Shown: positions 14 through 64,000 of the stretch, piece by piece
How the letters are laid out: each line of letters opens with the position of its first letter
How positions within the stretch are numbered: the stretch's first letter is position 1
From: Rhizophagus irregularis
Lineage: Eukaryota; Glomeromycota; Glomeromycetes; Glomerales; Glomeraceae
Assembly: GCF_026210795.1 (NCBI RefSeq)
Contig: NC_089452.1
Span: 2,604,001-2,668,000 of the forward strand
DNA: 64,000 nucleotides
Reading direction: 5' to 3'
Program-made: the position numbers and the translations under genes
Notes under the pieces: model-generated
The model's input: the letters and a program-made list of their open reading frames with translations, nothing else
Databases searched by the model: none
Told to the model about the DNA's origin: nothing

Positions 14-230
14 TTCTTTTAAAAATTCATTTAAATTATCATTTAAATTCTTGTGACATTTAAGAATTACTTCTTCATCTCCAATATTCTTTAACCAAAT
101 AGCTTTGTATATAGTACCAAATCCTCCTTCATTAAGATATTCAACATTTTTGAATTTGTTATAAGGAATCCATCTTAATTCTTTTTCAAGAATAAAATCA
201 TCTATAATTATATTTCCACTTTTCCCAAAT
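14..230 (-). CDS. Protein kinase N-lobe exon (Sel1/RIR-type kinase), gene runs off the left edge
   Basis: The minus-strand exon reads FGKSGNIIIDDFILEKEL, then RWIPYN, then a glycine-rich loop EGGFGTIYKA and the VILK strand holding the ATP-contacting lysine. It ends ..NEFLKE directly at a donor GTATAA (13-8). The same order (SxNxxIDxFI, WIPYN, GGF, VILK, EFLxE then intron) occurs in the complete kinase gene at 59210-62445, and the intron position is identical, so this is a paralogue of the tyrosine-kinase-like family expanded in Rhizophagus. The acceptor is at 232-231 (TTATAG). The first base A belongs to a codon that needs two bases from upstream exons. The rest of the catalytic domain lies beyond base 1, so activity cannot be judged. 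Very confident for the domain, less for the upstream structure. Confidence 0.85.
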
Positions 231-2785
231 CTATAAATTTAAATAATTAAAATTATATTATAAATTGTATTATAATTTACACAAAATAATTTATTACTTA
301 CTCTAAAATTTAAATATGAATTTAATGTAATATAAGACTTAATTTTTGGATAAATACATATAGTAACCTATGATTACAACTTACCAACTAAAGTAACAGA
401 TATTTTTAAAATGTAAGAATTCAGTTAACAAAAAATATTATATAAAATATACAACAATAAAGATACTTACAAGCTAGACCATAAATAATTTTTCAAATAA
501 AGAAATTAATTAGTTTAAATTATATGTAAATAATATAACAATAAGTGATAATAGAATTAAATAAATAACTTACGAACTATTATTTAATAATTTTTTAAAT
601 AAAGAAATTAGTTAGTTTAAATCATATGTAAATTTTATAACAATAAGTAATAATAGAATTAAATAAATAACTTATAACTTACAATCTATTAAATAAATAA
701 AGAAATTAATTAGTTTAAATTATATGTAAATATTATAACAATAAGTAATAATAGAATTAAAAAAATAAATAAATAACTTATAACTTACGATCTATTTAAA
801 TAAAGAAATTAGTTAGTTTAAATTATATAAATATTGTAACAGTAAGTAATAATAGAATTAATAAATAACTTATAACTTACGATCTATTTAAATAAAGAAA
901 TTAGTTAGTTTAAATTATATGTAAATATTATAACAATAAGTAATAATAGAATTAAATAAATAAATTATAACTTACAATCTATTAAATAAATAAAGAAATT
1001 AGTTAGTTTAAATTATATGTAATTATTATAACAATAAGTAATAATAGAATTAAATAAATAACTTATAACATACGATCTATTTAAATAAAGAAATAAGTTA
1101 GTTTAAATTATATGTAAATATTATAACAATAAGTAATAATAGAATTAAATAAATAACTTATAACTTACGATCTGTTCAAATAAAGAAAGTAGTTAGTTTA
1201 AATTACATGTAAATATTATAACAATAAGTAATAATTGAATTAAATAAATAACTTACTCCCTATATTATTTAATAATTTTTTAAATAAAGAAATTAGTTAG
1301 TTTAAATTATATGCAAAGATTATAACAATAAGTAATAATTGAATTAAATAAATAACTTACTCCCTATATTATTTAATAATTTTTTAAATAAAGAAATTAG
1401 TTAGTTTAAATTATATGTAAATATTACAACAATAAGTAATAATAGAATTAATTAAATAAATTATGGTTTACAATCTATTAAATAAATAAAGAAATTAGAT
1501 AGTTTAAATTATATGTAAATATTATAACAATAAGTAATAATAGAATTAATTAAATAAATTATGATTTACAATCTATTAAATAAATAAAGAATTAGTTAGT
1601 TTAACAATAAATAATAATAGAATTAAATAAACAACTTACTCGCTATATTATTTAATTTTTTTTTAAATAAAGAAATTAGTTATCTTAAATTATATGTAAA
1701 TATTTACAACAATAAGTAATAATAGAATTAAATAAATAAATTATGACTTACAATCTGTTAAATAAATAAAGAGATTAGTTAGTTTAAATTATATGTAAAT
1801 ATTAAAACAATAAGTAATAATTGAATTAAATAAATAACTTACTCCCTATATTATTTAATAATTTTTTAATAAAGAAATTAGCTAGTTTAAATTACTATAC
1901 GTAAATATTATAACAATAAGTAATAATAGAATTAAATAAATAACTTACTCCCTATATTATTTAATAATTTTTTAAATAAGGAAATTAGTTAGTTTAAATT
2001 ATATGTAAAGATTATAACAATAAGTAATAATATAATTAAATAAATAAATTATGACTAACAATCTATTAAATAATAAAGAAATTAGTAAGTTAAATTATAT
2101 GTAAATATTATAACAATAAATAATAATAGAATTAAATAAATAACTTACTCACTATATTATTTAAATAATTTTTAAATAAGAAATTAGTTGGTTTAAATTA
2201 TATGTAAATATTATAACAATAAGAATTAAATAAATAACTTACTCCCTATATTATTTAATAATTTTTTAAATAAAGAATTTAGTTAAATTATATAGTATTA
2301 ATATAAATATCATAATAACTTACACCCTGTAGTATTATTAATTAGTTAGATATAAAGATAATATAAAAGTATTTACTGTAAATTATATATATTACTTACA
2401 ATCTAGTTATTTCAATTAAGAATATAATTAATTGAATTATATAAAATATTAAACAAATAAATGTAATATATATATTGTAACTTACCATCTGTAATATAAT
2501 TAATTATTAAATAGTTATTTAAATAAAGAATTTAGTTATTTGAATGCTATATAAAATAAGTAAAGAACTAAAGATTTAAATAACTGATAATTTACCAACT
2601 ACGGTATTATTAATCATTAAATAAATTTATTTAGTTATATGGAATACAATAAAAAAAAATTAGTAATTCATTATTATTCAATTATAGTTAGTCTAAATTA
2701 TATTTGCATATTATGCGGGATATAATTATAGTGGTATTTGAATTTTTTATAAATAAAACTTAGTATTTCAGCTTGTTTGATATAC
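231..2785 (-). repeat. Tandem array of intron-like units separated by 3-nt potential microexons
   Basis: About 25 units of 70-112 bp each carry, on the minus strand, a donor (GTAAGT in 20 of 25; GTAAAT, GTATGT, GTAAAC or GTTAGT in the others). In most this is followed by an AT-rich body, a branch-like ACTAACTAATTTC and an acceptor AAATAG, TATAG or ACAG. Between each acceptor and the next donor lie exactly three bases. Their centres are 2597, 2487, 2401, 2325, 2244, 2150, 2061, 1950, 1844, 1753, 1641, 1571, 1473, 1362, 1258, 1170, 1075, 977, 882, 790, 684, 575, 472 and 386. The last unit (302) has a single base, A. The trinucleotides are mainly ATT, ATC and GGA, plus TTG, ATG, GGT, TGA, CGA, TTC and CTT. 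Unit size matches ordinary introns of this genome. It lies between the exon ending at 2786 and the kinase exon starting at 230. Whether the 3-nt pieces are retained in mRNA is inference. Confidence 0.8.
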
Positions 2786-2836
2786 CTTTAGTTTCTTCAG
2801 TGCCACTTTCTACAAATTCTTTGATAACACTGGAAG
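2786..2836 (-). CDS. Short upstream exon of the kinase gene (tentative)
   Basis: Between an acceptor CTAG (2838-2837) and a donor GTATAT (2785) the minus strand encodes SSVIKEFVESGTEETK and leaves one base, G, so it ends in phase 1. Charged helical segments of this kind (..EFVESGTEE..) are familiar in the N-terminal part of Rhizophagus Sel1/kinase proteins, which is recall rather than a search. The frame upstream is closed by TAA near 2861 and no ATG lies between, so an internal exon is likelier than a first exon. Its phase matters: with 3-nt microexons and the 1-nt microexon at 302 it joins the kinase exon in frame, whereas direct joining of 2786 to 230 runs into TAA after seven codons. Confidence 0.45.
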
Positions 2837-2861: not shown

Positions 2862-3422
2862 TATTGCAAGTTTATTTTAAAATTTTGAATAATTTCAATT
2901 TATATATATTATGTATTCATGCTATATGCTTTACCTTTACCAATATATTGACCCATTACTATACCGAAATTCTCCCTAATTGGAGTAAATATCTTTTTTT
3001 TCTTTTTTTTTACTTTTTAATATTAAACGCTTTTATTAGTATGAATAAATATTAGTAATAAATATATACAAAAGAAGCATTGCAATACATGTATGACAAA
3101 CAAATTTACACATCCGGAATTTCAAAATGTGACAATCGTCAAACCTTATTGTTGTAAAAAAATAGAATAGTAGCAAAAAAAGTCTTTTTTTTTATTAGCG
3201 TTGTTCAATAAAATGTATAAAAATAATAAAAAAAAAATAGCCAAAATAAAAAAAATTATAAATTAAAAAAAATTATTTTCAGTTTGAACTGAAAAAATTA
3301 AAAAAAAAATGATTATAAATTAGTATTGTAATAAAAAAAAAATGATTAAAAACAAAAAAAAAAATAATTAAAAGTTTTTTGGTTTAAAAAAAAAGAACCA
3401 AAAAAATAAAAAATAAAACATG
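2862..3422. other. AT-rich intergenic, no gene seen
   Basis: Homopolymer-rich A/T sequence with long A runs at 3170-3420. A 66-codon plus-strand frame at 2855-3055 is hydrophobic low-complexity translation of T-rich DNA and is not supported as a gene. Confidence 0.5.
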
Positions 3423-3431
3423 GCCGTTGAT

Positions 3432-4255
3432 AGCATAGCGGACATCCCTATTTTATCACAATTTTGCTGATCATTTGCCGATCATTTATCGATCATTTAT
3501 TCAATTATATCACATAATAAATGCCGTTATTAAAAATTTTACATAATAATATATGCTCAAAATTTACAAAAAACTTAAGTTTGGTTATAATTTGTTGCAT
3601 ATTAAATTTTATTTGAATTGGATTGTTATTGAGTTACTTTTATTAGTAGCAACTTTTTAACTTTTATTATTGTTTTAAATTTTAATAAAAATAATTAGTT
3701 AGTAGCATATGTTTTATGGTATTATTTATTAAATTTTGTGATTTATTTAGTTTCATGGCATCAATTTACTTAATTTTGTGACATTAATTTATGTAATTTC
3801 ATGGTATTTACTTAATTTTGTGACACTGATTTATTTGATATTTATTTATTCATTTTGCAAAATTATTTGTTAAATACCTTACTAATAAAAAATCTGTTTA
3901 ATGGATCGTATCACTGTTTTATTTTTACTATATATTATATATAAGATAAAGAATATTTGTGCAAAGTTTCAAGTTTCGCCCATGCATATTCACCTTCGTC
4001 CATCAATTTTTGTCTGATGATCCGCAAAAATGACTGAATTATCACATACGAAAAATGTGTTATTGTAATATAAAAAATTATACTAATTATTACATAATTA
4101 AAATTATATAATAATTTAGTAATTATCTTGGATTTCCATTATTTTTTTGCCATATCATTTTAAAATTATTTATGGCTTTTCAACAAGTTTTTAAAATCCG
4201 GAATTATGTGATCGGCAAATGATCGGCAAGGTGATATAAGCATGTCCGCTATGCT
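3432..4255. mobile_element. Mutator-like MITE with 9-bp target duplication
   Basis: The terminal inverted repeat AGCATAGCGGACAT occurs at 3432 and inverted at 4242-4255, and similarity continues into TATCAC. It is flanked by an exact 9-bp direct repeat GCCGTTGAT (3423-3431 and 4256-4264). Length 824 bp. A 9-bp duplication is typical of Mutator-like elements. Subterminal copies of GATCATTTGCCGATCATTT lie inside the left end and GATCGGCAAATGATCGGCAA inside the right end. No transposase frame is visible, so this is a non-autonomous copy. Confidence 0.85.
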
Positions 4256-4425
4256 GCCGTTGATAGAAAAGGAAAGAAAAAAAAATTAATTTTAGTTTAA
4301 CCGTTATCTCGGTTTAACCGTTAAAGAAATTGGTTCAATAAAAAATAAATAAATTCGGTTTAACCATCAAAGGAAAACTAAAGGGAAAAAAACCAAAAAA
4401 ATATTCTTTTATTGCAGTGATCGCG

Positions 4426-5368
4426 AAATCCCAACGATCAGAATCCCGTTATAACACAAACCTGACGCTCAAAGTCCTGACAAATCATAATTCCGAAAAT
4501 TCAAAATCCTGACACTCATTATCCAAACACTTTATATTAATAAATAAAAATGTAATGTTTGCATATAAAGATATAATTTTTTTAATATACTTTTTATTCA
4601 TGAGGATAGTATTAAGCAAAAGATTGAAATTTATTTTTCTAACTAATAACATTAATAATAATTCATTAAATTTTACGAAGTATGATTATTAAAATTATTA
4701 ATAAATAAAAAATATGTAATAAGATTAATTTTTGCAAAATATTTAAAAATAATATTATATAAAAATATTCAATTATTACTCATATTAATGGAAACATTAT
4801 TCATTATATAAAGTATTGCAAAATTATTATGTCTAAAAAATTAAAAAAAAATAATAAGTGTCGTGATAATGAGAGTTAGGATTTTGAACTTTTAGGAATA
4901 TGATTTGTCAGGATTGTGAGCGTTGTATACATGTTGCCGAAACTTTTTTTCAATTTCGGCCGCATTTCGGCTCCAAAATATAGCTACTTGTAGATATATC
5001 AATAAATTTTTTTAAACCTCAGATAATTTGGGCCAGATCTGCAGCAACTTTTAGCAGACTTCAGAAAATTTCGGCATAATCTGTAATAATTTCGAATCGG
5101 ACTTTAAAGTTTTGGCCATATATTAAATATAGGTTGTCCGAAATTCCAGAGCCCTGCCGAAATTATGTAAGTTGGTCGAAATTCCTCAAAAGTTCTTTCA
5201 TAGGTTCTTCAGACCCGGATTAACCTATTTGAAGCCTAATTTCAGCCAGATCTATGAAATCAGATGATTTTGCTTTGACCAGTTTGTCATGTGGGCGAAA
5301 TAGCCGAAATATTTCGGCAACATGTATAGAGCGTTGGGCTTGTTGTTATAACGTGATCATTGGGATTT
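4426..5368. mobile_element. Long-arm TIR element of the 'AATCCCGA' family
   Basis: The left arm (AAATCCCAACGATCA.., CGTTATAAC, GACAAATCATA, TTCAAAATCCTGAC) is repeated inverted at the right end over about 100 bp once the nested insertion at 4926-5328 is removed. The middle is plain AT-rich sequence. Related arms occur at 20889-22171, 24665-24785 and 55204-55848. I could not settle the exact ends or a target duplication. Confidence 0.7.
4926..5328. mobile_element. hAT-like MITE (403 bp) nested in the element at 4426-5368
   Basis: The inverted termini TATACATGTTGCCGAAA (4926-4942) and TTTCGGCAACATGTATA (5312-5328) match perfectly. An exact 8-bp duplication GAGCGTTG flanks it at 4918-4925 and 5329-5336. 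Many internal TTTCGGC and GCCGAAAT repeats are present. The 8-bp duplication suggests a hAT-type transposase acting in trans. No coding frame. Confidence 0.85.
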
Positions 5369-6316
5369 GAATGGCTTCCATCATCCCGAAATGATGGAAA
5401 CGGCTGAAAAAGAAATATAATAAAAGCTTAACTTTTTCCGTTAGCATCACAAAGAAATTTCTATACAAAATTTTTGCGGATTTGCCATCGAAATAGGACC
5501 CAGATAGTACCAACTTAATAACCTTTTCAGGTGAGATTTTTTATTTGCGTAAAACAAAATTTTTTAAAAGGTCTGATTTTCATTTTGCGTAATTTTGACA
5601 TTTCAAAATATTATGAGGTTATTTTTGATATAAATTAGGAAATTTTATAGTTATAGCAGATCAATAGCAGATTAAAACTTACTTATTTTGTAAAATAGCC
5701 ACGAAATTACCATATGATATTGAAGCACAATTCTGTTATTTATTAAAAAAAAAAATTTTCTTTTGCCCTTTATAGAATATCCATTCTGTAAAGAATTTTA
5801 TAACGTTTAAGCAGAAGTATAGTAAAGAAAGTCTCTTAAAACACGAATTTTGTGCCCGCATTATTCATCCAAAAAAGGCGGTATGAAAGTTATTAAGCTG
5901 AACCGAAAATGGGAAGAAGATTATCTAAACTAACATGTGAGAGTTCTGGTTGTAAAGCTAAGGAAAGTCAAGGATCAATTTACAATTTCTTTAAACCTAC
6001 TGAAAGTCAACGTATTGAAAGTTCAGACGATGATGACTTATTGAAAATAGATGAGGCAGAGGAAAAAGAAATAAATGAAAATGTAGATACCTTGCTTACA
6101 GATAATGAATTTTTAAGTAATTTAAACAAATCTGGAAAACGTTTAATTTGGAAAGGTCTTCAATCTGAACAAATTTCTAATTACATAAAACGTACTCTGG
6201 CACATTTGGTGGATCTTGACGAGTAGAAATTGTTGCATGTGAATTATTTCCTAACAAGTTTCCTAAAAAGTTTAGAAAAAAGAAACTGAATTATAAACAA
6301 AAACGGAAATAGTAAG

Positions 6317-7820
6317 TCCCTATAAGAAATATATATACGGAAAGGATACGTTTTGTATACATTTTATGTACGTTTCTATAGATTCCGTATACAAATTCCG
6401 TATATTTAATAAGCAATTCATTTTTGAACATTTTTTAAAAAAACTAATGTATACGGAAAAAATTAATCATACGGAATGTATACGGAATTTTTAAACTTAA
6501 TATATTTAGAAAATAATTTTACAAAAATCTCGTATCATAACACGAGATCACGTGATTGTTTATTGTTTTGTTATGATACGTTTTTTGTTTTTATATAAAC
6601 CCTTACTTTGATGAGTTTGATCTTCCGATCTTCCTTTCTGTCTTTCCTTTTCTTCTCTTTTCTCTTGTCTTATTTTTGTTATTTTTTCTAAATTTTTCTT
6701 CTTTTTTCGTCACCCCCCCTTTTAAAAAAAAATTTTTTTTTCGTACCTCACTTTAAAAATTTTTCTTTTTCATCACTCTCCTAAAAAAAAAAAATTTTTT
6801 TGATTTTATTCTTTTATTCCCACTCTTCTAAAAATTTTCTTAAAAAAAAAATTTTTTTTAACTCTCCTAACTTCGTTACCCTCTTTTTAAAAAAATATTT
6901 TTTTTAACCCTCCTAACTTCGTTACCCTCTTTTTAAAAAAATATTTTTTTTTGATTTATTCTTTATTCCCCTTTCTTTTTATTTATATTTATCCCTTTTT
7001 TTATTTCATAGGCCAGCAGATTTTTTTTTGTGAGAAGATTCAGTTTTTTTGTAGATCAGTTTGGGAGTCCTTTCCTTTTTGTAGGATTGTTCAGGATTTT
7101 TTTCTTTTTTTAGGTCAGTTCAAATTTTCTTTTTTTTTTTTTGTAAGTTGGGTTCAGATTCTTTTCTTTTTGTAGGTTGTTTCAGTTTTGTTGCTTCAGA
7201 GTCTTCTTTTTTTGTAGGTCAGTTTTGGATTTATTTTGTTGTTTTGGTTTCTTTTTCATCAGATGCTTCATAATTCTTTTCATTTATGTAGGTCAGACAT
7301 TCTGGAGTTCTCTTTCTTTTTTTGTAGGAATACTGACCTTTGGTGACTTGGATGATTGCAGATACTATATGAAGGGGGTTTTTGTTTCCAATTAAGTTAG
7401 ACGTTCTTTTTTGTTTTTTTTTAGGTTGTTTGACTCCAAATGAACCTGAACTTATAGATAATTTTGGTTGCAATAGGTGGCCTTAATAAGGAGGGAATTT
7501 TCATAATGTATTTGTATTTTGTTTATTTTTTATTTTTTTATTTAATTTAATAAAGTAAAATTAGATTTATATAAATATAATTATAGTAAACTGTAATACA
7601 AATAGTAAATTCAGTGACCAAATCGTATAAATTTCGTGATAAAATCAGTGATCAAATCATGTAAATTCCATATGAATTCCGTGCAAATTCCGTATCCAAA
7701 CCATATTTTTAGTGATACGGAATTGTGCATTTTTCCGTATCCTATTATGATACGTTATTTCTAAGGAAAAAAAATCGTATAAAAACTTTATAAAAAACGT
7801 ATCCAATTTTTTTATAGGGA
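6317..7820. mobile_element. TIR element with internal promoter-like and acceptor-like repeats
   Basis: The ends are TCCCTATAA (6317) and its inverse TTATAGGGA (7812-7820), each followed inward by GGATACGTTTT. Subterminal ATACGGAAT/ATTCCGTAT copies crowd both ends (about 6345-6490 and 7687-7740). Inside, on the plus strand, a TATATAAAC box (about 6593) is followed by a CT-rich leader. At 7008-7435 more than ten polypyrimidine stretches end in TTTTGTAG or TTTTTAG followed by GTCAG or GGTTG, resembling repeated 3' splice sites. It sits inside the pseudogene at 5909-11750. No transposase seen. The target duplication is unclear. Confidence 0.65.
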
Positions 7821-59209: not shown

Positions 59210-62200
59210 TTAATAATCCTCAATCATACAATCAAGACCCTGAGACTCTTCTTGAACTAAGATTTCAGTAAGTTTGCGACTTGTATAATATGCTTGTGGA
59301 TGAGATTGCATAATAACTTGTTCTTGTAATAAAGCTTTGTCTGCCTCTACAAATTCAAACATATCATTTTTTAATTGATTATCAGTAATAGGTACTTCAT
59401 ATTTATAATTTCCATTCCTGTTTATTTCATAATATTTATTAATACATCTAATCCATTCAGATACAATATTTTCAAGCATTATTATGGTTGGTCTATTGGA
59501 AGGATTTAAATCCCAACATTTTTCTATCAAATTTATATAACATTTTGGAGTACTTTTCATGATTTTAGGACGTTTTCCTTCATAAACACTCAAGATAAAA
59601 TGATGGTCATGTGCTTCATGGTTAAATGGAGGAATGCCTGATGTAAATTCCCACATTATCATCGAAAAGCTATAAATATCACTTGCTGGAGTATAGGGTT
59701 TTTTTCTTAATATTTCAGGCGCCATGTAAGGTAAAACTCCATAAATTTCATTAACTTTATTATCAGAATCTTGCAAATCACTTATGGGTTTGCACAATCC
59801 TAAATCAATAATAAATGACTCATAATTATCAGATATTAAAATATTACCATCATGAAAATCACCATGAGTTAAATTTGATTCATGGATTACTTTAAGTCCT
59901 AATATTATTTTTTTCAATAATTGTAACTTTTCTTGCCACTTGAATTTAATTATATCAGATAAACATTTTCTCAAACTTCCTTTTTTCGCATAACTCATTA
60001 CTATTATATAATTTAAATTATTTGGATCTTGAGTAATTCCAAAAAATTGAATAAATTTCGAAAATGACTTTTTCTGACAATTATAATGATATTTCCACTA
60101 TGTAAATAACAAAAAAATATTAAACTTCTGCAGAAGGAAATAAAATTTGCTATTAAATATAAATACTATACCTCATCTAGAAATTCACTATTTAAACTTG
60201 ATGAATTATTAAGTTTTTTAAGAATAACCTCATAACATGTTTGTCTATTCCATTGTTGTTTGTCAAAATTCCAACTAAAAATAGGCCCGTCTGACCAGAT
60301 AGCTTTATGAATTTCACTAAATCCTCCTTTAGTATAATAATCAATACTTGTTAAATTATTGTAAGGTATCCACTCTAAAATTTCATAACTATTTTTAGCA
60401 TTTATTTGTGCTTCCTGAATAAATTTATCAATAAATTTATTTTTACTAGTCCACTTTGAAAAATCTTGTTGAAATCGCTTAGTATTACATTGTTGGCACC
60501 AATGGTAATCAGTGTTTGGTAGATTGCATTCATTACAAAATACAACTTCAATTTTAGAAATTTTTTTGTTATTTTCTACTATTATTTGATGCCAATAAAA
60601 GGCCCTTTCTAAATTCTTTTCTGTTCCTTCTCCATATCTATAACATGCAACTAAATTAATTATTGCAAAAATATGACCTTTTTTTGCTGCTTTTTGAAAC
60701 CAATGAAAGGCTTTTTCTAAATTCTTTTCTGTTACTACTCCATTCCTATAATGTACAGCTAGATTAAACATTGCATCAATATGATCTTTTTCTGCTGCTT
60801 TTTGATACCAATGAAAAGCTTTTTCTAAATTCTTTTCTGTTCCTTCTCCATAATAATATCTATTGGCTAGATTAAACATTGCAATAATATGATCTTTTTC
60901 TGCTGCTTTTTGATACCAATAAAAGGCCTTTCCTAAATTCTTTTCTGTTCCTTCTCCATTATAATATCCATTGGCTAAACTATTCATTGCATCTTCATCA
61001 CCATTTTCTGCTGCTTTTTGATACCAATGAAAGGCTTTTTCTAAATTCTTTTCTGTTCCTTCTCCATTTTCACAACATATGGCTAAACTATTCATTGCAT
61101 CTTCATCACCATTTTCTGCTGCTTTTTGATACCAATGAAAGGCTTTTTCTAAATTCTTTTCTGTTCTTTCTCCATTATAATACATATTGGCTAAATTAGA
61201 CATTGCATCTTCATCACCATTTTCTGCTGCTTTTTGATACCAATGAAAGGCTTTTTCTAAATTCTTTTCTATTCCTTCTCCATTTTCATAACATATGGCT
61301 AAACTATTCATTGCATCTTCATCACCATTTTCTGCTGCTTTTTGATACCAATGAAAGGCTTTTTCTAAATTCTTTTCTGTTCCTTCTCCATTATAATACA
61401 TATTGGCTAAATTAGACATTGCATCTTCATCACCATTTTCTGCTGCTTTTTGATACCAATGAAAGGCTTTTTCTAAATTCTTTTCTATTCCTTCTCCATT
61501 TTCATAACATATGGCTAAACTATTCATTGCATCTTCATCACCATTTTCTGCTGCTTTTTGATACCAATGAAAGGCTTTTTCTAAATTCTTTTCTATTCCT
61601 TCTCCATTTTCATAACATATGGCTAAACTATTCATTGCATCTTCATCACCATTTTCTGCTGCTTTTTGATACCAATGAAAGGCTTTTTCTAAATTCTTTT
61701 CTGTTCCTTCTCCATTTTCATAACATATAGCTAAACTATTCATTGCATCTTCATCACCATTTTCTGCTGCTTTTTGATACCAATGAAAGGCTTTTTCTAA
61801 ATTCTTTTCTGTTCCTTCTCCATTTTTATAACATATGGCTAAACTATTCATTGCATCTTCATCACCATTTTCTGCTGCTTTTTGATACCAATGAAAGGCT
61901 TTTTCTAAATTCTTTTCTGTTCCTTCTCCAATATAGTATCTAGTGGCTAGATTAAACATTGCATTAATATGATCTTTTTCTGCTGCTTTTTGACACCAAT
62001 GAAAGGCTTTTTCTAAATTCTTTTCTGTTCCTATTCCATATCCATAATATACACCTAGGTTATTCATTGCATCAATATGATCTTTTTCTGCTGCTTTTTG
62101 ATACCAATGAAAGGCTTTTTCTAAATTCTTTTCTGTTCCTTCTTCATTATAATATCTATTGGCTAGATTAAACATTGCATCAATATGATCTTTTTCTGCT

Positions 62201-62445
62201 GCTTTTTGATACCAATGAAATGCTTTTTCTAAATTCTTTTCTGTTCCTTCTTCATTCTTATAACAGTTGGCCAAGTTAAACATTGCTTCTTTATCACCAT
62301 TTTCTGCTAATTTTTCTAAAGAATTAATACATTCTTTACACCATAATTCTTCAGTAAAAGGTATATTACAATATGAACAATTTTTGGTGTCTATTGTAAC
62401 AGTATCTTCATCTGAGATATTTAATTTATTAAATTCTGTTTCCAT
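59210..62445 (-). CDS. Zinc-ribbon, 16 Sel1 repeats, zinc-ribbon, protein kinase; two exons
   Basis: Exon 1 (62445-60172) and exon 2 (60097-59210) join in phase 0 over a 74-bp intron (GTATAG..ACATAG) to about 1053 residues. Residues 23-39 hold CxxC..CxxC (CSYC..CKEC). Sixteen 36-residue Sel1 units follow (consensus EKNLEKAFHWYQKAAENGDEDAM). A second CxxC pair (CNEC..CQQC, about residues 640-660) precedes FSKWTSKNKFIDKFIQEA and WIPYNN. The kinase has a glycine loop KGGFSEIHKA (third Gly replaced by Glu or Ile), VILKK, a catalytic loop HGDFHDGNIL (HRD reads HGD), DLG in place of DFG, MAPE, SDIYSFSMIMWE and NRPT. The changes HGD and DLG occur in active relatives of this family, so activity is likely but not certain. 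The Sel1 solenoid probably docks partners that feed the kinase. A paralogue of the gene at 1-2836. Confidence 0.93.
60580..62300 (-). repeat. 108-bp coding tandem repeat with 216-bp higher-order period
   Basis: The Sel1 units are 108 bp at the DNA level and very similar. Between about 60990 and 61640 units alternate between SNLANMYYN and NSLAICYEN types, making 216-bp blocks that recur at 60987, 61203 and 61419, so recent duplication copied pairs of units. The antisense strand is open across the same blocks, which is a shadow of the repeat. Confidence 0.85.
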
Positions 62446-64000
62446 TTGTTATTTAGAAATTTGTTTTTACTGAAAAAAAAAAAATTATTTTTTTCTAGAC
62501 AAATTTTTTTAACAAAAAATTTTTTTCTTGTTAACTGTCAATGAAGCTTCTAAAAAGAAATATTCTAACCAAAAGTAGAAATTACAACAAAAAAATTTTT
62601 CGGTCCGTATTATTCCCGATGCACTGATCTGCATTGAGAAATTCCAACCATAAGTAGTTAGTTTAAAGCGGAGTAGGTTTGGCCAGCATTACGGCATTAA
62701 GAAATTACGCTTGTGACAATAAGGGGCATGACAAATAGGTTTTCACTAACTGAAAAAATTCTGTACCGAAATGCTTACTAAAAAAAAGAAAAGTGGGTGA
62801 TTTATAATCACGTAGTTCTGTCCGTTGTAAATGTCATGTTCAATAAAAGAAAATAACAAAATTAAACTTGTTTATTTTCTCACATTAAGATTATAAGAAA
62901 GCATTTTATCAGCATTTTTCTCCAAAAAAATTAGTGGACAAATAGTCCTATTTTTACTAACAAATAAGATAGGATTATGAGCAATTGAGCATGTCCTTGT
63001 TCAACATTATAACTTTGATAATGTAAACAATCATGATGCAGATCAACGCATCAGAAAAATACAGTCCGAAAATTAATAATCCAGAATTTCTCCCTATAAA
63101 TAAAGTCAATCCGTGTTTTATATTCCATCATTTTTCCATAAAAGGCTCATATTTTTGGAATTAATAACCTTATATATATCACGGAATTTATCGAATTATT
63201 TACATTTTCCGTGAATGGATCCGTAAAAGGCTCATTTTTACAGAGTTTTTACAGAAATAACGGGTAATATTTTTTATAAGGCCTAATTTTAGTTAAAACA
63301 TGAAGGTATATTCTATTTTAAAATTTTATTTTTTTAGTAACTCATACAATTTTCCTTCCCTTCCTTCCATCCACTTACGTCATAATTCCTTTTTGAATAA
63401 AATTTCCCCTGCTCATTATTTCCTTTATATTTGTATCCTTTTTTTGCAAAAACAATTTTTTAATTTATTTGTAATACGTTCACTCTATTTACAGAGAATC
63501 ATAATAAGCGACAGACTTCAACGGTTTCTGTTACCTAGTATAGTTTGTGACTTCTAATTAATTGTTAAAATAGTATGTGCTAACGTTAAATTGAATGTTT
63601 TGACAGATTATTTTCTATATAGCTTATCTCTTGCTACTTATATTTACTATATGTTAAAACATAAACTGTTCATTATATTTGATTTCTTTCAGTTTATTTT
63701 ATATGTTTAGTTTCTTAATAATATATGTTTGATAAACTATGCATGTTAGAATTATGTTTACCTAATCATATGTTATTGGCAAAAAGGTTCCTTGACGTTA
63801 CAAAAATTTAAAATTGGTCAAAAACAATCATTTCACATAATTTTAAAATCGAGTCAATAAAATTTTTTTTTCTTTGCAATCCAAATTAATTCAATCGAGA
63901 AAATTTAAAATACTGTTTCAAATTTCCAAAATCCTAACCAATTTTTTGTCTGTAATTAGACGTAAGATGATTTTAGCAATTATAATTTTAGTTGGCTATA
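62446..64000. other. Upstream region of the Sel1-kinase gene and intergenic
   Basis: A T/A-rich leader lies immediately before the ATG. 62735-62830 (GACAAATAGG.., AATCACGTAG) is a diverged copy of 57715-57820. An 85-codon frame at 63300-63557 is T-rich and unsupported. Confidence 0.4.

Follow-up and report, generated by a model that had tools for sequence, protein, structure and literature searches.

Layout of the predicted gene

The stretch of DNA analysed here, called the window below, comprises 64,000 nucleotides of the Rhizophagus irregularis genome (contig NC_089452.1, contig positions 2604001-2668000). It appears to contain the 5' half of a gene for a protein kinase, the N-terminal segment of which would be coded codon by codon by a tandem array of intron repeats. 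In the predicted order, a short ATG exon comes first and an acidic exon second, each ending in phase 1; then follow 24 exons of 3 nt, one exon of 1 nt and the first kinase exon. All microexons and splicing events described in this work are predictions from the genome sequence; the gene lies on the minus strand, and coordinates are those of the window. The predicted features are as follows.

2935..2956, minus strand: predicted first coding exon, ATGGGTCAATATATTGGTAAAG, coding MGQYIGK plus 1 base, with donor GTAAAG, phase 1
2786..2836, minus strand: second predicted exon, coding ASSVIKEFVESGTEETK plus 1 base, with donor GTATAT, phase 1
385..2598, minus strand: array of 24 exons, each exactly 3 nt and flanked by introns, with predicted splice sites
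Array triplets 1-12: TTG ATG ATT GGT GGA TGA ATT GGA GGA ATT CGA ATT
Array triplets 13-24: ATT GGA GGA ATC ATC ATT ATC ATC ATT TTC CTT TTG
2596..2598, minus strand: first 3-nt exon, TTG
2149..2151, minus strand: 3-nt exon TGA, a stop in phase 0 and harmless in phase 1
385..387, minus strand: last 3-nt exon, TTG, belonging to the usual array end CTT TTG A
302..302, minus strand: 1-nt exon A in the context TTAG-A-GTAAGT, moving the frame from phase 1 to phase 2
14..230, minus strand: first kinase exon, FGKSGNIIIDDFILEKELRWIPYNKFKNVEYLNEGGFGTIYKA...NEFLKE, with donor GTATAA at 13-8; its predicted end follows from the open frame of the exon after it

The original prediction for this locus had proposed 24 units with exactly three bases between an acceptor and a donor, and all of them are located, from 2596-2598 to 385-387. 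It had also spoken of about 25 introns. The array itself stands, and the exact count is 25 microexons after exon 2786-2836 and ahead of the kinase exon, whose first base is 230, hence 26 introns, with the 1-nt exon, unnamed at that time, included. The donors after the 25 microexons are mostly GTAAGT, as had been claimed (20, against GTAAAT 2, GTTAGT 1, GTAAAC 1 and GTATGT 1), and the acceptors preceding them are TAG in 21 cases and CAG in 4. The introns on the 3' side of the microexons measure 67-109 nt, and the intron 2785-2599, before the first microexon, is longer. An ACTAAC motif had been reported before most acceptors; this was overstated for the exact motif, present in the last 60 nt of 11 of the 25 introns, and holds for a looser branch-like form (21 of 25).

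The reading frame connects these parts. The upstream exon had been said to end in phase 1, which is the case for exon 2786-2836, and it joins the phase-1 ATG exon 2935-2956. Joined in silico, the product MGQYIGK-ASSVIKEFVESGTEETK-VDDWWMNWRNSNYWRNHHYHHFPFE-FGKSGNIIIDDF... is free of stops from the ATG to the kinase. The stop-free peptide of the original prediction, VDDWWMNWRNSNYWRNHHYHHFPFE-FGKSGN, is thus recovered, and it requires the 1-nt exon A, which had been used silently. As a control, the splice from 2785 to 231 as a single intron yields DLGKVEI followed by a stop, that is, after the seven codons foreseen earlier. The identical stop after DLGKVEI appears when all the 3-nt exons are kept and the 1-nt exon is omitted. 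The 1-nt exon would be needed for an in-frame entry into the kinase. The unit near 2150 named as a stop in another phase is the TGA at 2149-2151, a stop in phase 0.

The kinase continues beyond the window, where the next exon (L001:5936-5073, minus strand) has an open frame. A Pfam scan covered the two kinase exons. The second kinase exon matches PF07714 with E=3.6e-35 and 122 bits against a cut-off of 23.1, and PF00069 as well, while the first kinase exon alone (73 residues) gave no Pfam match. Exon 2786-2836 was also considered as the end of a neighbouring gene, its frame running past the donor to a stop; this was rejected, as the upstream exon is conserved in paralogs. In several of them its counterpart is a longer exon of EEFEESGTEEF repeats.

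A kinase gene family with arrays

We searched the genome (146,748,485 bases in 32 contigs) with patterns that count exact consensus sites only, taking the reversed pattern as control. Three consecutive AG-NNN-GTAAGT units at a spacing of 76-106 bp gave 2269 matches against 22 for the reversed pattern; these matches overlap along arrays and are not a gene count. The pattern of GTAAGT followed by ACTAAC 20 bases on was uninformative, with 8 matches against 58 in the control. The array-end signature, a TTN exon plus the 1-nt A exon with consensus sites, occurs at 106 places in the genome and at none in the control. A protein search with the first kinase exon had 3785 candidates, of which it scored 150, and gave 151 matches, 150 of them listed; among the listed kinase exons 145 are free of stops and 5 have an internal stop. 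For 88 of the 100 listed array-end places, a listed kinase exon follows immediately on the 3' side. Two of the other 12 fall in L043 and L044, where a kinase exon is found, and L042, the third array retrieved for this check, also has one.

For closer comparison, the window was joined by 28 of the 150 listed loci; the choice was made by hand and took mainly top-ranking matches, along with some weaker ones. An array together with a related kinase exon is seen in 28 of these 29 loci, a biased rate, because several of the weaker loci were picked for a visible array nearby. The exception is L030 (oriented 6000-7600), where only the last TTG and the 1-nt exon remain before the kinase exon, and the DNA upstream is unrelated and coding-looking. 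The 1-nt exon, in the context TTAG, one base, GTAAG, is present in all 29 loci (27 A, 1 G, 1 T). The exon before it is TTG in 23 of the 28 arrays, TTA in 3, ATG in 1 and TCG in 1, and the triplet ahead of this final one is most often CTT (18 of 28). The array starts tend to show all or part of CTC, TTG or TTA, ATG, ATT and GGT, 24 of the 28 arrays carrying ATT GGT early on, and the middle is variable. Read by eye, a CTC exon stands one unit upstream of TTG in five compared paralogs and has no counterpart in the window, whose array appears to have lost this unit with the frame unchanged. On the whole, by these sequence matches, the array is a feature of a gene family, a kinase family of about 100 places.

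The start exon was resolved in part of the 29 loci. A pattern search matched 5 of 21 sequences (the window, L016, L017, L019 and L024), and the others were read by eye; exons resembling MGQYIGK were so seen in paralogs as M[D/G]Q..., and in distant members as MA[Q/H/N/D]..ND[K/E]G. The variants include MGQYIGK in the window, MGQC... in L017 and L026, and MDQ... in several others. The MG-type start exons resemble N-myristoylation sites, and the MG form is not conserved among the paralogs.

Some further observations were made along the way. In L022 (oriented 3314-4762) an array block of about 1.15 kb is repeated and its peptide repeats WNRNRNDDGDG, a recent, large expansion of units. At G000:C1:1724640-1728765 and G000:C3:1575212-1577452 there are arrays of 3-nt spacing with clearly different unit sequences, possibly independent array families. 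Within the window, no further microexon array is found besides that at 385-2598, and a second kinase-like gene with a long upstream open reading frame lies at 59213-62448 on the minus strand.

Regularity of exon length

To describe the arrays, donors and acceptors were scored separately by a chain finder that allowed exons of 1-12 nt with no preference for length. Across the 29 loci it chained 858 exons, of which 807 are of 3 nt, 33 of 1 nt, 12 of 6 nt and 6 of other lengths. In earlier chains with exons up to 45 nt allowed, 3 nt was found in 604 of 650 exons (21 loci) and in 196 of 209 (eight loci); the pseudo-exons of 26-45 nt in these chains vanish once exons above 12 nt are disallowed. A direct count of AG N(k) GTAAGT within the arrays of 27 loci (L030 and L033 left out) gives 687 for k=3, 53 for k=1, to which both the terminal 1-nt exon and overlapping AGN triplets contribute, and no more than 3 for each other k from 0 to 15. 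The zero-length form AG-GTAAGT (k=0) numbers 3 against the 687 of k=3, so that the arrays do not have the make-up of ratchet sites. The donors are near-perfect, with GTAAGT in 491 of 570 training sites.

Wholly regular arrays, with multiples of 3 and a final 1-nt exon, are seen in 22 of 28 loci, and 19 of these 22 run stop-free into the kinase. The irregular ones are L018, L025, L028, L031, L032 and L033, and an in-frame stop occurs in L014, L017 and L038. In L018 there are two 2-nt exons and one zero-length unit; at oriented 5740-5960 of this locus the zero-length exon (ATATAG-GTAAGT) and a 2-nt exon apparently come from a GGA unit. In L025 one exon has 7 nt, or alternatively reads GGG with donor GTTAGT, and L031 has a mutated donor ATAAGT.

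Avoidance of in-frame stops

In phase 1, a codon consists of the last base of one exon and the first two bases of the next, and a stop is a T followed by AA, AG or GA. Among genome-wide adjacent pairs with both exons at exact consensus, T stands before AA or AG in 3 cases and another base in 549; before GA the counts are 0 and 91. All adjacent pairs together have 1109 T-ending and 2477 other exons, a baseline of 0.31. In-frame stops are thus formed by 3 of 643 stop-capable adjacent pairs, versus 199 expected. In the control that skips one exon, T precedes AA or AG in 77 cases and another base in 280, a proportion of 0.22. In the fetched arrays the T-ending exons are 2 of 54 at the adjacent exon, versus proportions of 0.17-0.36 at all other distances from -6 to +6.

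Shuffling the order of the exons gives a consistent picture. In the first 20 arrays there are 3 phase-1 stops versus 14.6 expected (standard deviation 3.0), with none of 2000 shuffles as low, and without L033 there are 2 versus 11.4 expected, with one of 2000 as low. The other phases of these arrays have 5 stops (phase 0) and 115 versus 87 expected (phase 2). Eight arrays fetched later have no phase-1 stop versus 4.2 expected (9 of 5000 shuffles as low), and 26 versus 22.6 expected in phase 2. Counted per locus, a stop occurs in 2 of 27 loci versus 10.2 expected, and none of 3000 shuffles is as low. L033 was left out of this per-locus count and of the distance test, as well as of the unit-pair comparison and the unit clustering given below. 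Because the avoidance is confined to the adjacent exon, which is hard to explain otherwise, neighbouring triplets are probably joined and read. In these sequences translation leaves a footprint, namely that of the predicted joining and one-frame reading of the microexons.

Hypervariable triplets

We compared 202 nearest-neighbour pairs of units, selected to have almost the same outer intron, with no more than 3 differences in 88 sites. Differences per site come to 0.252, 0.109 and 0.342 at exon positions 1, 2 and 3, against 0.033 in the near intron, and the ratio of exon to intron differences has a 95% range of 5.2-9.4 when loci are resampled. The same triplet is shared by 109 pairs and 35 have multiple changes, while single changes number 20, 2 and 36 at positions 1, 2 and 3. 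Position 2, the least changed, is the wobble base in phase 1. Even among the 69 pairs with 106 identical intron sites the triplet differs in 26, and 17 different triplets occur within a single cluster of 56 near-identical units drawn from 15 loci. The simplest reading of this pattern would be diversifying selection on the encoded residue. A mutator targeted to the exon, or a homogenisation of introns that spares the exon, may be alternatives.

Weighing of explanations

The array is a tandem repeat, and descent keeps the motifs of a repeat in register; it could accordingly be viewed as a minisatellite within one long intron, with the AG-NNN-GTAAGT motifs as decoys or fossils and 2785 spliced straight to 231. 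We find this very improbable: the direct splice runs into a stop after seven codons, the exon length stays constant at 3 despite differing triplets and diverged end units, and the avoidance of stop-capable neighbours (3 versus 199, at the adjacent exon only) cannot be explained by an unused intron. To the same very low degree we credit recursive splicing, in which the sites would be stepping stones in the removal of a long intron and the triplets would not be retained in the mRNA. The zero-length unit of L018 does resemble a ratchet site, and recursive splicing around a 1-nt exon is discussed by Guo and Liu (PMC4674806); however, the 1-nt exon is required by the frame, and the stop avoidance together with the wobble pattern requires translated triplets. 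Stepwise removal may still be the way in which the exons are joined. The least credible of all is a translation start downstream of the array, which would make the array 5' untranslated or promoter sequence. An in-frame ATG before the glycine loop in the kinase exon would allow it in 7 of 29 loci, but 22 loci, the window included, have none, and stop avoidance in a single phase is not expected of untranslated sequence. By the tests of frame and stop avoidance, the minisatellite, recursive splicing without kept triplets and the downstream start are rejected as main explanations.

Two other possibilities leave the array spliced, now or formerly. The 3-nt exons could be translated and used as cassettes, their regulated skipping giving many isoforms per gene. 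Any subset of units keeps the frame, irregular units such as those of L018 and L031 would be tolerated by skipping, and the NLR genes of the truffle offer a precedent, as a review reports (PMC10197012). On the other hand, frequent skipping should make a final T rare in exons standing two positions ahead of a stop-capable one; in the fetched arrays, such exons end in T at the baseline rate (15/52 = 0.29 versus 0.28), and the genome-wide skip-one proportion, 77/357 = 0.22, is far from the 0.005 of adjacent pairs, although its position below the adjacent-pair baseline of 0.31 could hint at some skipping or at composition. We judge such cassette use unlikely. Constitutive inclusion of the array exons, with room for some skipping, is favoured, not proved, because the fetched arrays show no constraint against skipping products. 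Alternatively, the family may be decaying, with arrays that were once spliced and most copies now untranscribed pseudogenes. This accords with the in-frame stops of 3 among the 22 regular arrays, the irregular exon lengths of 6 among all 28, the lack of an array in L030 and a weak codon-position signal in the kinase exon; but 19 of 28 arrays lead intact into the kinase, 145 of 150 listed kinase exons are stop-free, the genome-wide stop avoidance is nearly complete (3/643), and triplets are still changed between unit copies with identical introns. We hold a decay of this extent to be quite improbable, less so than the three rejected explanations and more so than cassette use.

With these alternatives considered, we regard it as highly probable that the array forms a spliced and translated hypervariable segment of the kinase, with one codon per intron. 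The in-frame splicing of 3-nt microexons into the kinase exon, the core of the original prediction, is supported by the recurrence in the family, the stop avoidance and the 1-nt exon in 29 of 29 loci. What goes beyond it is that the 1-nt exon is named, that a predicted start-codon exon and a genome-wide family are recognised, and that the triplets prove hypervariable.

Several points weigh against the one-codon-per-intron segment. An exact array-end signature is not listed for 62 of the 150 listed kinase exons, which may be diverged or array-less. The irregular exon lengths in 6 of 28 arrays and the in-frame stops in 3 of 22 regular arrays indicate members that are probably broken or skipping units. 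The site models were trained on 3-nt sites, though exon length was unscored, and the conservation of GT and AG is partly by construction. Because neither paralogs nor tandem units are independent of one another, the nominal P values for the genome-wide stop avoidance are too small. The in-frame ATG ahead of the glycine loop in 7 of 29 loci also counts here, as do the codon-position counts over the kinase exon's initial 42 codons (1424, 1073 and 1600), which show only mild purifying selection. The recognition role proposed below rests on analogy.

Proposed mechanism and significance

We infer the actual splicing, the order of intron removal, the unequal exchange and the role of the segment from the sequence. 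Unequal exchange would add or remove units with the frame intact, unit gain and loss being frame-neutral because each unit would put exactly 3 nt into the mRNA. The splice signal would be carried by the donor, mostly a perfect GTAAGT, leaving the exon bases free to vary, and the near-perfect donors may make up for this freedom. At about 90 nt, the introns would be recognised through intron definition and spliced out successively, as was suggested for a 1-nt exon by Guo and Liu (PMC4674806). The product would be a segment of roughly 15-60 residues that differs in length and sequence between paralogs.

As for function, a recognition role is suggested because a fast-varying segment of short exons sits on a kinase. 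That the segment is a diversifying recognition part which controls the kinase, in response to self/non-self, symbiont or pathogen cues, seems to us a reasonable conjecture that falls somewhat short of an even chance. More tentative still, and in our view rather unlikely to hold in full, is the wider idea that coding is organised here in a new way: introns would be repeated in variable number, each unit of about 95 bp amounting to one hypervariable codon, and at least about 100 kinases would bear such segments as recognition codes, with unequal exchange altering the length, selection or an exon-targeted mutator altering the letters, and the intron kept constant. The result would be a genome-encoded receptor repertoire of an ancient symbiont, convergent with the truffle NLRs.

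If the predicted splicing is true, the annotation of about 100 kinase genes in a major plant symbiont is probably wrong, because very short exons are readily missed by standard RNA-seq aligners and annotation, according to the abstracts of PMC8831610 and PMC7821500. The listed kinase repertoire of R. irregularis DAOM197198 is 2,533 (PMC10234402). The arrays would also be a limit case for the spliceosome, with dozens of consecutive 3-nt exons plus a 1-nt exon and almost no donor information on the exon side. Furthermore, they would constitute a natural system in which a protein segment is altered one amino acid at a time via the turnover of repeat units, and the genes would be candidate recognition kinases that could bear on fungal self/non-self and partner/pathogen discrimination.

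Comparison with known systems

What characterises a micro-exon array, runs of exons of a few nucleotides with consensus sites and symmetric phases, is seen in 807 of the 858 chained exons and in 24 of the 25 microexons of the window, and their joining and translation in one frame is indicated by the 3 versus 199 stops at the adjacent exon only. For microexons in arbuscular mycorrhizal fungi, our searches of open-licence literature listed no report.

The micro-exon genes (MEGs) of Schistosoma mansoni have exons mostly of 15 bp, with a range of 6-81 bp (3-81 in the abstract), and are described as coding for secreted proteins with a signal peptide, with 10-20 short exons and introns up to 5 kb (PMC10526429). 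Both are variable gene families with numerous short exons whose lengths are mostly multiples of three; unlike the MEGs, the present genes have exons of 3 nt, tandemly repeated introns of about 90 nt and a kinase, and by eye the start MGQYIGK is not signal-peptide-like, which places them outside the MEG family. Aphid bicycle genes, putative effectors, average about 17 exons, with internal exons almost all in phase 2, and one of them, megacycle, has more than 100 microexons (PMC9168663). They share with the arrays many internal microexons of one phase and a fast-evolving family, while the arrays are in phase 1 in a kinase gene and thus do not belong to the bicycle family; 3-nt exons, the rule here, are not mentioned in the available part of that article. 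As to the single-nucleotide exon, a 1-nt exon A sets the reading frame of Arabidopsis APC11, as tested with fusion constructs (PMC4674806). Whereas APC11 is one gene, here all 29 loci have a 1-nt exon ahead of the kinase exon, and in 28 of them it stands behind a 3-nt array.

The repeats of fungal NLR proteins (WD40 and similar) combine high internal conservation with hypervariable positions, and the whole repeat is coding. Near-identical repeats with few diversifying positions are common to both cases, but here only 3 of about 95 bp per unit would be coding.

The original prediction had ranked this gene among the most extreme microexon genes. The ranking fits the sources compared, and it had left unmentioned the 3-bp microexons of truffle NLR genes: for Tuber melanosporum, alternative splicing of 3-bp microexons in NLR genes has been reported (Iotti et al. 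2012, via the review PMC10197012). According to this report, 3-bp microexons as such are already known in a fungus, and the truffle genes are the nearest reported case. Both systems are fungal, have 3-bp microexons in a sensor segment and diversify a presumed recognition protein. The truffle genes are NLRs, whereas in the two pieces scanned here no NLR architecture was found, the second kinase exon being a kinase and the first giving no match. Alternative splicing is stressed in the truffle account, in contrast to the kinases, long tandem intron arrays and large family described here, in which the fetched arrays favour constitutive inclusion and the diversity would lie in the DNA.

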